From Planktothricoides sp. SR001 (GTDB lineage: Bacteria > Cyanobacteriota > Cyanobacteriia > Cyanobacteriales > Laspinemataceae): a DNA stretch of 39,472 bases. The position numbers were made by a program, and so were the translations under genes. The DNA lies in assembly GCF_001276715.1 (NCBI RefSeq), contig NZ_LIUQ01000049.1:1-39472 (forward strand), read 5' to 3'. Shown in pieces: positions 12,391-28,803 of the stretch. Under the pieces are notes generated by a model that worked only from the letters and a program-made list of their open reading frames with translations, made no database searches and was not told where the DNA came from. Numbering within the stretch: position 1 is the first letter of the stretch; each line of letters starts with the position of its first letter.

Positions 12391-12426
12391 GTTTCTAATC
12401 AATTAATATCCCCAGCGAGTGGGGAT
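12391..12426 (-). repeat. Degenerate terminal CRISPR repeat (trailer end)
   Basis: This 36-bp copy differs from the consensus in its 5' part (GTTTCTAATC for GTTTCCATTC) and once in the loop region (CAGCG for CAACG). Degeneration of the leader-distal repeat is typical and orients the array. The next gene starts 35 bp further on the minus strand. Confidence 0.92.
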
Positions 12427-15400
12427 AATACACGGGACGAGCCCTCTGGTTAGTTCCCAGTGCGTTTCCATTCAATTAATATCCCCAACGAGTGGGGATT
12501 CATCTGACAAAAAAAGAGAAAGCGATGATAGAAGTCGCTTTCGTTTCCATTCAATTAATATCCCCAACGAGTGGGGATACTGCAACTGATACCGCGATCG
12601 CAACCGATACCGCCACGTTTCCATTCAATTAATATCCCCAACGAGTGGGGATAATCGTGCAAAAACTTGAATCCGAAATTGTTCGACTGTTTCCATTCAA
12701 TTAATATCCCCAACGAGTGGGGATACTGCCTTGTCTGATGCCCGCACTGCGACGAACATTGGTTTCCATTCAATTAATATCCCCAACGAGTGGGGATACA
12801 TCGAAAACAGATCGTGGAAGTTTCCTAGTTGGGGAGAAAAAACGCTGTTTCCATTCAATTAATATCCCCAACGAGTGGGGATGAGTCTGACGATAAAATT
12901 TTGCAAGTATTTATGGAAGACTTTTTATGTTTCCATTCAATTAATATCCCCAACGAGTGGGGATGGCTTATTGGAAAGTAGCCAAAGCCAAAAATATTGT
13001 TTCCATTCAATTAATATCCCCAACGAGTGGGGATACGAATTGATTGATGAATTATCGGCAAAACGAGGGCAAAAGCGTTTCCATTCAATTAATATCCCCA
13101 ACGAGTGGGGATACGGCGATCGCTTCCACTATCCACCACGGCGATCGGTTTCCATTCAATTAATATCCCCAACGAGTGGGGATACCGTATTGTTTCCCGA
13201 CGGGCGACTACCAATGCCCGGTTTCCATTCAATTAATATCCCCAACGAGTGGGGATTCCCTGCTTAAGTAAGTCTTCGATTTTGTCGATACTGCCAAGTT
13301 TCCATTCAATTAATATCCCCAACGAGTGGGGATACGAATTTGTTTTAACCCTTCGATTTCCTGATCTACTTTGACTGTTTCCATTCAATTAATATCCCCA
13401 ACGAGTGGGGATAACCAAGCGTGTTGAACGCATCGCTTAAGGAAATAGAAGAAGTTTCCATTCAATTAATATCCCCAACGAGTGGGGATCCGCTATGGTT
13501 GGCCGCCATGTTCTATCCCGGAATGGCGGTTTCCATTCAATTAATATCCCCAACGAGTGGGGATATTTATCGAATCTTTGTCATGTCAGATTATAACATC
13601 ACGTTTCCATTCAATTAATATCCCCAACGAGTGGGGATGAGTGGGACAGTTTAAATTTATTGATAGGAAGGAGAACGTTTCCATTCAATTAATATCCCCA
13701 ACGAGTGGGGATAATACATTACACGTATTATTGTAGGATTAGGTCTATCTCTGCTTGTTTCCATTCAATTAATATCCCCAACGAGTGGGGATTCAAAATA
13801 GATGCAAAAGTAGACACAAAAATAAATAGTGTTTCCATTCAATTAATATCCCCAACGAGTGGGGATTAAACCAGAGCGGAATATTGATGCACGACACTCC
13901 TTTAGTTTCCATTCAATTAATATCCCCAACGAGTGGGGATTGTCTACTATGACAAGGAAAATAAAATGATCATAGTTAGTTTCCATTCAATTAATATCCC
14001 CAACGAGTGGGGATAATTTCAAAAACTTTGGTACTTGCAACAGATTGAATATCCGTTTCCATTCAATTAATATCCCCAACGAGTGGGGATTAAACAATTT
14101 CAATTCCCGCAATTGTTTACACTATATGGTTTCCATTCAATTAATATCCCCAACGAGTGGGGATTACTCGGCATTTTTTCTTGGTGCTGATGCAAGTCCA
14201 GTTTCCATTCAATTAATATCCCCAACGAGTGGGGATTAAGTTTAGCCAGCGGGCTTTATTAGCACTTTCAGAGTGTTTCCATTCAATTAATATCCCCAAC
14301 GAGTGGGGATAGTATCAGGTCTTGTAGCTAAAGCTACTCGGGCGAGTTTCCATTCAATTAATATCCCCAACGAGTGGGGATACCTGCTCCTCCCTGTTTG
14401 CCCAAAGGAAAAGCGGGTTTTGTTTCCATTCAATTAATATCCCCAACGAGTGGGGATAAACCTAACTTAATTTAGGAGAAAAACAATGAAACTGTTTCCA
14501 TTCAATTAATATCCCCAACGAGTGGGGATTATGTACCAACCATTGATGCCACAACACGCCACAACCTGTTTCCATTCAATTAATATCCCCAACGAGTGGG
14601 GATATCTTCATAGCTCCTAAAGAGTATCAATTAGGATGTATAGTTTCCATTCAATTAATATCCCCAACGAGTGGGGATTATCACTTATGGGCCAACCCCA
14701 GTTGGATGATACATCATAGTTTCCATTCAATTAATATCCCCAACGAGTGGGGATATAGCTGTAGGGTAATATTCTCAACATTACTATTCCCATAAAAGTT
14801 TCCATTCAATTAATATCCCCAACGAGTGGGGATACGTTCGTTCAGCCCAATCATTGGACCTCACTCAGGTCAGTTTCCATTCAATTAATATCCCCAACGA
14901 GTGGGGATTATTGGAAGAAGACTGGGCTACTCTCAGCTTGACGAGTTTCCATTCAATTAATATCCCCAACGAGTGGGGATCGCGATTAACGCGGCAGGAG
15001 GAGAAGCTATCTTATTGCAGTTTCCATTCAATTAATATCCCCAACGAGTGGGGATTTCAATCAGCTCTTAATCTCCTTAGAAAGTATCTGGGATAAGTTT
15101 CCATTCAATTAATATCCCCAACGAGTGGGGATATTATACCGATAAATCAATAGATTAAGAAAGTTATTCTAGTTTCCATTCAATTAATATCCCCAACGAG
15201 TGGGGATTATCTCCAGAGGACGTATCGCTGATTGGTAAGGCTGAGGTTTCCATTCAATTAATATCCCCAACGAGTGGGGATATCCTCCAGAAGATGCCGT
15301 ATGGGGAGCCGAATGGAGTTTCCATTCAATTAATATCCCCAACGAGTGGGGATGTGACTAAGCTAGAGAAGGAAGTAGCAGCTCCTTCAAAAGTGTTTCC

Positions 15401-28700: not shown

Positions 28701-28803
28701 AAGGCCCTTCTTCTCCTCTACCAGTGCGATCGTGTAATGCTTTCAACGCGGGGTCATGGAGTAGACCCCAAATTTTTGCTTGCCAAAAGGGTGTATTTGT
28801 CAT
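25714..28803 (-). CDS. cmr2: Cas10/Cmr2, large subunit and cyclic-oligoadenylate synthase of type III-B
   Basis: This 1029-aa protein starts MTNTPFWQAKIWGLLHDPALKALHD, a typical Cmr2 N-terminus with an HD pair (His16-Asp17). Palm motifs follow: AAGDGDGMSNWL near residue 705 and the cyclase motif GGGDDVLA, with GGDD at 794-797. Both are intact, so it should make cyclic oligoadenylate from ATP on target RNA binding and may cut ssDNA through the HD site. The frame stays open to a TTG at 28965, but those 54 residues are partly translated REP-like repeat (28826-28914); the ATG at 28803 is chosen. No ribosome-binding site is obvious. It is the first gene of the cmr cluster and is divergent from the WYL regulator. 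Confidence 0.96.
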   Translation of the reverse strand: MTNTPFWQAKIWGLLHDPALKALHDRTGRGEEGPWQVLQCMKGWVSPKAKSKKDAQYCTTWLEQIALSDLIASASDRAAIGRLPFTTAIDYDAEGIEIRHLLSGAKQTLKLGQWHDFLIGWGNKRGEELSKIEDILIPESIRNCEDARKVYWWLWRCYPVALAQAFDREDTRENHILNEPCLPLLPAETRIPDASVWSHTTMTSALAGALAGYHQDTDTYPRKNARKGKDYYQSRPYVSIFSFTPVQELIKASRKMRDFWAGSWLLHYLSAKVSWAIAWQYGPDTLLYPCLYAQPLIDLWLLEAYPDPDFQAWITPPTERQLLTAGFPNVLVTILPDNGDHSTDEKVKNPVKAAMQFAEQTLHQEWLNLGRQVLADLQDPTKGKPWMPNLNPHTWENWLKAQWQTYWTALPIGDRNSELHQSPRKEAEYKAWEKKQNDFARPKPELLVEPEANFVKAIYELGIKEDWQNRHEPNYSHKSHKARQPNLNVGSWWGNIFDQTRFALTAVKNARIWEIPTAFGPRSTISGIGPVVHSGNDWVTEGDTQNDWQRQVGLFDGIEELNATEVLKRGLHRILPDLLQLPPKELELYYPDLCSGVAGWLKLHPEALEYYQKACDNISQEFNWINPHQPWGIPWVSSNHPDWQNPRLLNAGWLIEDFEPKPTNSDELLTKTQQKNQKQAELKRLRESIAQWFAPGNNPTDWYAIAAGDGDGMSNWLKGQPLKNYSDYIPDALPPKIEKLSDNLKEPFLEFLECKKRMGPATHNALSRALLDFSNQLLPYLTEVRYAGRLIYGGGDDVLAYTNMWEWDNWLWDIRECFRGADDPQDEFISEGDYWRWNSGDLPKNIQERPLFTMGSCATISFGIVLAHHSVPLAIALENLWQAEESAKDHKTPNNQEKDAVQVRVLYGNGNVLKATAKFEVFDSWRSLLNGEQFEQLDSALFEQAATVWSQHPVPVENAIAPWTNAFCSRREVFKGDETLQHQFQTALCDFLTKLYETTETKECDREVQNWLKVAAFVLRQRNITAISH

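Follow-up and report, generated by a model that had tools for sequence, protein, structure and literature searches.

How does a type III-B locus of the clustered regularly interspaced short palindromic repeats (CRISPR) type that carries an array of 54 repeats but no cas6 gene obtain its CRISPR RNAs (crRNAs), and what does its effector complex do once a target RNA is bound? The question is raised by a stretch of 39,472 nucleotides (nt) from the cyanobacterium Planktothricoides sp. SR001, referred to here as the window, which is positions 1-39472 of contig C95 (NZ_LIUQ01000049.1) in a 7.07-Mb genome of 165 contigs. The window holds a complete type III-B locus with all Cas genes and the array on the minus strand. 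Cas10/Cmr2, Cmr3, Cmr4 and Cmr5 are present, and Cmr6 and Cmr1 are found as one protein. The order of transcription is cas10, cmr3, cmr4, cmr5, a gene for a 668-residue RAMP protein, a CARF-HEPN gene, a gene for an unassigned protein of 158 residues, csx18, cas1, cas2 and the array. The gene set, the one-strand array and the lack of cas6 at the locus that an earlier note on this DNA had described are confirmed, the genes by scans with Pfam, NCBIfam and PADLOC; csx18, the 158-residue reading frame and a divergent regulator gene (29791-30975, plus strand) were missing from its list. The reading favoured here, with a probability of about 0.82, is that the locus is a III-Bv system in which host RNase E, and RNase J too, would cut the array precursor into crRNAs with 13-nt tags, which would serve a Cas10-Cmr complex with a fused Cmr6-Cmr1 subunit and cyclic-oligoadenylate signalling to the CARF-HEPN protein.

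Membership in III-Bv and a candidate RNase E site

The system of Synechocystis sp. PCC 6803 (6803 in what follows) has been named III-Bv and is reported to be matured by RNase E (PMC10989914; PMC6604393). The earlier note had assigned the window's locus to this variant, and the assignment is supported: gene set, fusion, lack of cas6, homology to the CRISPR3 repeat and effector phylogeny agree in placing the locus, as a further member, in a cyanobacterial variant that is already described, and not in a new kind. CRISPR3 of 6803, on pSYSA, has cas10, cmr3, cmr4, cmr5, the fused RAMP gene, csx18, cas1, cas2 and the lack of cas6 in common with the window, the same core order (cas10-cmr3-cmr4-cmr5-RAMP), and a repeat with a 5′ hairpin, an AU-rich tail and a near-identical 13-nt tag. 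It differs in an opposite-strand gene between cmr3 and cmr4, in csx18-cas1-cas2 lying on the other strand upstream of cas10, and in having no homologue of the window's CARF-HEPN protein within a 25.8-kb stretch (phmmer, 1e-4). The III-B locus on pANACY.03 of Anabaena cylindrica PCC 7122 encodes a fused RAMP protein 57.9% identical to that of the window and annotated cmr6, its repeat differs at 2 of 36 positions, and a WYL gene and csx18-cas1-cas2 lie nearby, as they do in the window (where WYL is a probable assignment); here, however, csx18-cas1-cas2 and the array stand upstream of cas10, whereas in the window they stand downstream. Cluster 4 of Microcystis aeruginosa FACHB-524, likened here by its published description and not by sequence, is reported to form a complex of five subunits, one of them a Cmr1-6 fusion, that was purified from E. 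coli, but its expression there included a Cas6 (PMC11855584). Classical III-B Cmr systems (Pyrococcus furiosus, Thermus) share the Cas10, Cmr3, Cmr4 and Cmr5 core, yet Cmr1 and Cmr6 are separate (Thermus), the tag is described as 8 nt long (PMC7192623), and the catalytic position of Cmr4 differs, as detailed in the next section.

Relatives were collected with the fused protein as query. By tblastn they occur in 29 plasmid records; in 16 of these the match spans 80% of the query or more, and the homologue on pSYSA of 6803 shows 48% identity over 91% of it. Species genomes, when scanned, yielded 70 loci, 45 of which have flanks of at least 5 kb on both sides. The survey set of 76 loci (1.40 Mb; numbered with L) is made up of the window, five plasmid loci and the 70 genome loci, a few of these being partial, and one plasmid locus, L021, has only a distant, weakly matching RAMP. 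In a quick tree of 71 RAMP rows built without bootstrap, from which L021 (for its weak match), L079, L103, L106 and L108 were left out, the window and 6803 (L017) fall into one starred set of 43 rows with a Shimodaira-Hasegawa-like approximate likelihood ratio test (SH-aLRT) value of 95; the position of the window inside this set is not starred.

The array (12391-16417, minus strand) contains a 36-nt repeat 54 times, in minus-strand reading ATCCCCACTCGTTGGGGATATTAATTGAATGGAAAC; 53 copies are identical and the leader-distal copy (12391) has three mismatches. The spacers are 34-49 nt long, and blastn of the whole array against phage records at an expect value (E) of 0.01 gave no match. A putative leader of 193 nt (16418-16610, minus strand) is recognized by its position between cas2 and the first repeat. 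The repeat aligns without gaps to the CRISPR3 repeat of 6803, and its last 13 nt agree at 12 of 13 positions with the crRNA tag mapped there, AUUGAUUGGAAAC (PMC3575380). RNase E of 6803 is described as cutting AU-rich single strands at sites with a U at +2 and an A at -3 or -4, also directly downstream of a hairpin (PMC10989929, PMC10989914). RNase E is reported to mature the CRISPR3 crRNAs (PMC10989914), and according to an editorial RNase J acts alongside it in 6803 (PMC13383573). The window repeat follows the III-Bv plan of hairpin, AU-rich single strand and 13-nt tag sequence, and at the counterpart of the cut mapped in CRISPR3 (the 13-nt site) it has +2U and -4A.

Repeats processed by Cas6 have the base of the hairpin within about 5-8 nt of the 3′ end. 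In control arrays the distance is 5 nt for two C160 repeats of the window's own genome and 7 nt for CRISPR2 of 6803, and the C15 repeat of the same genome forms nested pairs ending 1 and 6 nt from the 3′ end. The hairpin base of the window repeat, in its minimum-energy fold, stands 17 nt from the 3′ end, outside the range of Cas6-served arrays. Two repeat architectures were recognized among the relatives, namely class A (33 distinct units), which opens with the hairpin and closes with 15-19 nt of 3′ tail, and class B (13 distinct units, two of which, from L092, differ only by one extra 5′ base), in which the hairpin lies inside the repeat and the tail measures 13-16 nt. The repeat sets take in an orphan C18 unit and both arrays of L021 and leave out 11 array units that were partial, of another kind or oddly bounded; L072 and L080 were shifted by hand from class B to class A, and the 36-nt columns omit the 35-nt unit of L108. 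The class A stem is conserved by covariation: across 32 units 96.9% of cells are paired and six of six pairs change on both sides. None of 500 shuffles was as high on four of five measures; on the fifth, which counts the types of pair, 46 of the 500 were, and in slid controls 30-59% of cells are paired. The starred set of 43 RAMP rows contains 33 class A rows, one class B row and nine without an array, and the two classes need at least seven changes on the tree (51 labelled rows, one quick tree; labels assigned by eye for L060, L074, L075 and L078 as A and for L100 as B). At L041 (5411-8365) a class B array accompanies a fused RAMP whose closest company in the tree is class A loci (Laspinema L039 and L105), which is possibly a recent switch of repeat architecture.

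The two classes also carry different RNase E signatures. At the 13-nt site the 36-nt class A units have U at +2 in 32 of 32 and A at -4 in 26 of 32. Both parts of the rule hold at this site in 27 of the 33 class A units and in none of the 13 class B units, and at the 8-nt site in five of 33 class A units and in all 13 of class B. Other positions pass as well, in class A at 16 nt (24/33), 9 nt (9/33) and 17 nt (5/33) and in class B at 16 nt (6/13). The signatures predict 13-nt tags for class A and 8-nt tags for class B; the contrast was noticed after the fact and stands as a prediction, not a test.

As it has no guide-RNA cutter of its own, the system most likely borrows the general RNA-cutting enzymes of the cell. 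The genome has one RNase E match, and processing of these repeats by RNase E in Planktothricoides is consistent with the sequence and with the occurrence of class A arrays in genomes that lack a detectable Cas6. The array would be transcribed as a single precursor, and host RNase E would cut the AU-rich single strand just 3′ of each hairpin (GGGGAU AUUA^AUUGAAUGGAAAC), with RNase J also acting, as reported for 6803, to yield crRNAs with a 13-nt 5′ tag. These would load into a Cas10-Cmr3-Cmr4n-Cmr5n complex whose 3′ end would be capped by a single fused Cmr6-Cmr1 polypeptide. Binding of target RNA would then activate the Cas10 cyclase, cyclic oligoadenylate would turn on the CARF-HEPN ribonuclease, and the HD nuclease may provide a second output.

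The catalytic position of Cmr4 and the proposed signalling output

In P. furiosus the Cmr4 substitution D26N is reported to abolish cleavage of target RNA (PMC7192623). When the backbone protein of the window (Cas7-type; cmr4, 23507-24346, minus strand; TIGR02580 117.8 bits, cut-off 87) is compared with P. furiosus Cmr4 (4wnz_A), the chain residue D26 is without a counterpart. The column of the catalytic aspartate is a gap, by a one-residue deletion, in 69 of 69 III-Bv Cmr4 rows, the window included, and in three of three further cyanobacterial loci of a related kind (L131-L133). The aspartate is present in all five Cmr4 of classical bacterial III-B loci (L126-L130), which together with residue 26 of P. 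furiosus sets the classical systems apart from the window, and it occupies this position in the solved chains 4wnz_A and 9arw_C. Full-text literature searches met no description of the missing aspartate in III-Bv, and an updated classification (PMC12669027) may mention it.

The cyclase motif of Cas10 is retained. The cas10/cmr2 gene (25714-28803, minus strand) encodes HD (LLHDP) and GGDD motifs; its open frame extends to 28965 with a TTG start, and over this longer frame the PADLOC Cas10b model scores 1104 bits. All 64 of 64 Cas10 rows have an intact GGDD. HD is aligned as HD in 43 of 64, a count from which no losses are read because the alignment was a quick one. The proposed receiver of the signal is a CARF-HEPN (Csx1/Csm6-like) ribonuclease (19321-20598, minus strand; PADLOC PDLC01806, E 5.5e-180) with a HEPN-type motif, RNQSMH, at residue 367; no solved relative was found by sequence at E 0.01.

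Comparison of these sequences suggests, at a little under even odds, that the III-Bv lineage has a slicer-dead backbone that would bind target RNA and not cut it, and that it would act chiefly as a cyclic-oligoadenylate alarm unable to switch itself off, with two repeat architectures predicting tags of 13 nt and 8 nt. The Archaeoglobus fulgidus chain 9l7c_F has alanine, possibly engineered, at the position of the Cmr4 aspartate, which counts against a slicer-dead lineage. A somewhat doubtful alternative is that another conserved residue of the Cmr4 loop, for instance the glutamate of QEGN, replaces the aspartate and the complex still slices its target RNA. The loop is strongly conserved, with E in 68 of 69 rows and N in 69 of 69, and another residue could therefore act; the glutamate, however, is some three residues away from the catalytic position, and every row has a gap where the aspartate should stand.

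cas6 genes elsewhere and the fused RAMP protein

For the ten Cas-locus proteins of the window no Cas6 family was listed in the Pfam, NCBIfam or PADLOC scans, and a hidden Markov model (HMM) of 13 Cas6 sequences found no Cas6 among the window's open frames of at least 60 residues. With the same HMM cas6 was detectable in none of the 76 surveyed loci within the 1.40 Mb covered (best score E 0.55). In controls it found five of six held-out rows, the miss (C112) having been read in the wrong frame, and it recovered all 13 seed genes spiked into the survey database, an in-sample control. Searching with a cmx6 sequence recovered the query gene itself and the cmx6 gene of L109, and no gene of the survey loci. 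One of 36 C-terminal halves of the RAMP protein matches a type IV Cas6 model weakly (E 0.029), which is taken as chance. The genome-wide search covered pSYSA and 48 genomes, many of them drafts, that account for 48 of the 70 genome loci. PF10040 is present in 39 of these 49 genomes or records (38 of the 48 genomes, and pSYSA). Among the ten genomes without it three have the cmx6 model TIGR02807 and none TIGR01877, and seven of the 48 match none of four Cas6 models (PF10040, TIGR02807, TIGR01877, PF08798). A class A array is present at the locus in six of these seven (L049, L053, L071, L072, L080 and L104, of which L072 and L080 were assigned to the class by hand), with up to 63 repeats counted.

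Several observations weigh against maturation by RNase E as proposed above. The rule of +2U with -3/-4A is loose: it marks the 16-nt site in the window repeat too, and in the 6803 repeat it passes at 9, 16 and 17 nt besides the mapped 13 nt. The Microcystis Cmr1-6 system was, by its published account, co-expressed with a Cas6 in E. coli (PMC11855584). Allowing up to three mismatches, the window's genome has 150 reverse and 67 forward matches to the repeat; 54 of the reverse matches lie in the window and the 67 forward ones on C18, which leaves about 96 reverse near-matches whose location in the genome was not found, two further patterns having given nothing and the fetched stretches of C95, C18, C160, C112 and C15 holding none of them. 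The genome also has three cas6 genes, on C160, C112 and C15, and no array accompanies that of C112 within the part of the contig retrieved (78,000-108,000).

These genes give substance to a caveat of the earlier note, that a Cas6 from elsewhere in the genome could serve the locus. In this alternative a Cas6, most plausibly the array-less one of C112, would process the III-B repeats in trans and leave an 8-nt AUGGAAAC tag. Sharing of Cas6 by type I and type III systems is known. Each of the three genes, however, judged by eye from reading frames, is part of a type I operon and stands apart from those arrays of the window repeat that were located: that of C160 adjoins cas1 and an array in which another repeat occurs 110 times, and that of C15 stands, of cmx6 type, about 9 kb from another array. 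A trans-acting Cas6 is therefore unlikely. It is made less likely by the hairpin base near the 3′ end in Cas6-served arrays (1-7 nt in the controls, against 15-19 nt in class A), by the genomes that match no Cas6 model and yet hold class A arrays, and by the report that cas6 knock-outs in 6803 leave the CRISPR3 crRNAs unaffected (PMC3575380). Host RNase E, with RNase J, remains the preferred candidate for processing.

Two other loci of the same genome were noted. The C15 locus (L036/L037) is a separate CRISPR locus with Cas1 in a 570-residue frame, and its cmx6-type Cas6 is missed by PF10040. The C18 locus (57074-62071; L011/L012) has a 67-repeat array with one loop base different from the window repeat, in which three repeats with an altered last base stand at the 5′ end, not the usual 3′ end; C18 gave no match to Cas1, RAMP, PF10040 or cmx6 models.

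The fused RAMP gene (20971-22977, minus strand) was characterized by half-by-half profiles, AlphaFold2 and Foldseek. Its 668-residue product has a low-complexity N-terminus followed by Cmr6 (about residues 62-318) and Cmr1 (about residues 319-668). An alignment of 36 homologues was cut at window residue 318/319 and the halves were searched separately. The N half has as its best solved chain the Cmr6 chain 9arw_H (E 1.3e-14), with weaker matches to Csm3, and the C half matches 4w8x_A (E 2.5e-7), 9z7q_I (2.7e-6) and 4l6u_A (3.8e-6), and the one that follows these has E 0.18; the solved chains under E 0.1 represent three sequences, each of which bears the name Cmr1 or uncharacterised/Cmr1 C-terminal. 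All 36 C halves are matched by each of three PADLOC Cmr1 models, and 34 of the 36 by the NCBIfam Cmr1 model (TIGR01894) at E 0.1. The HMM comparison suggested in the earlier note thus assigns the halves to two families, not one, and its Cmr6-Cmr1 fusion is borne out; Cmr6 as the identity of both halves was rejected on the Cmr1 matches of the C half. It is very improbable that the protein is only a long Cmr6 with a duplicated Cas7 domain as its C half, for although PADLOC PDLC01212, named Cmr6, covers both halves and matches 36 of 36 C halves, some relatives carry a cmr6 annotation, and the window's own C half scores 13.8 bits with TIGR01894, under the cut-off of 28.65, the Cmr1 models and solved chains just listed speak against it. 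The AlphaFold2 model has a mean predicted local distance difference test score (pLDDT) of 78.1 and a predicted template modelling score (pTM) of 0.79, and its best Foldseek matches are a mixture of Cmr1, Cmr6, Csm, III-D and gRAMP chains, which is expected of linked Cas7-type folds and does not by itself separate the halves. PF03787 (RAMP) has only two matches in the genome, both within the window. A Cmr1-6 fusion has already been published for Microcystis (PMC11855584).

Neighbouring genes and meaning for the III-Bv lineage

The remaining Cas genes, all on the minus strand, are cas2 (16611-16892; PF09827, E 2.1e-24), cas1 (16892-17884; PF01867, E 3e-88), csx18 (17884-18162; NF040558, 91.6 bits, cut-off 50), cmr5 (23099-23488; PADLOC Cmr5, E 3e-67) and cmr3, which is Cas5-like (24351-25517; PF09700, E 8.4e-60). 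Between csx18 and the CARF-HEPN gene lies the gene of the 158-residue protein (18588-19064, minus strand), a possible accessory protein with a hydrophobic stretch by eye, no family above cut-off in Pfam, NCBIfam or PADLOC, and homologues in two of 75 related loci (L046, L103). Beyond cas10 and divergent from the operon, a gene on the plus strand (29791-30975) encodes a protein of 394 residues with homologues in 36 of 75 related loci; it is probably a WYL-type regulator, a name taken from annotated neighbours in related loci, and a WYL-domain gene adjoins the A. cylindrica locus. The 5′ end of the regulator gene is duplicated as a stub between that gene and cas10 (29089-29167 and 29790-29868), with 25 of 26 residues identical between the copies. 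Short interspersed repeat families with a AAGAAACCGGGTTTCT core occupy the intergenic gaps at 11576-12081, 18200-18594, 19113-19314 and 20611-20829, and a 2162-residue protein (4883-11371) appears by eye to be a hybrid of serine/threonine kinase, ATPase, GAF, histidine kinase and receiver domains.

The locus represents a known cyanobacterial variant in well preserved form, and it is useful because it is far from 6803 and yet has kept the cut-site sequence. The survey suggests that the absence of cas6 from the locus is a lasting feature of the Cmr1-6 lineage. For strains such as 6803 and PCC 7002 two predictions follow for the bench: the complex should leave target RNA unsliced, and the architecture of the repeat should set the length of the tag. 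If the lineage is indeed slicer-dead, III-Bv systems would need other means of reset, such as ring nucleases or turnover of the target by host RNases, and the host RNases that reset the alarm would be the same enzymes that make the guides. In P. furiosus, a strain with Cmr4 D26N was reportedly obtainable only in backgrounds that also lacked the DNase and Csx1 activities (PMC7192623). Should the Cmr4 reading prove right, it would bear on how a type III system that is unable to destroy its own trigger avoids damage to itself.

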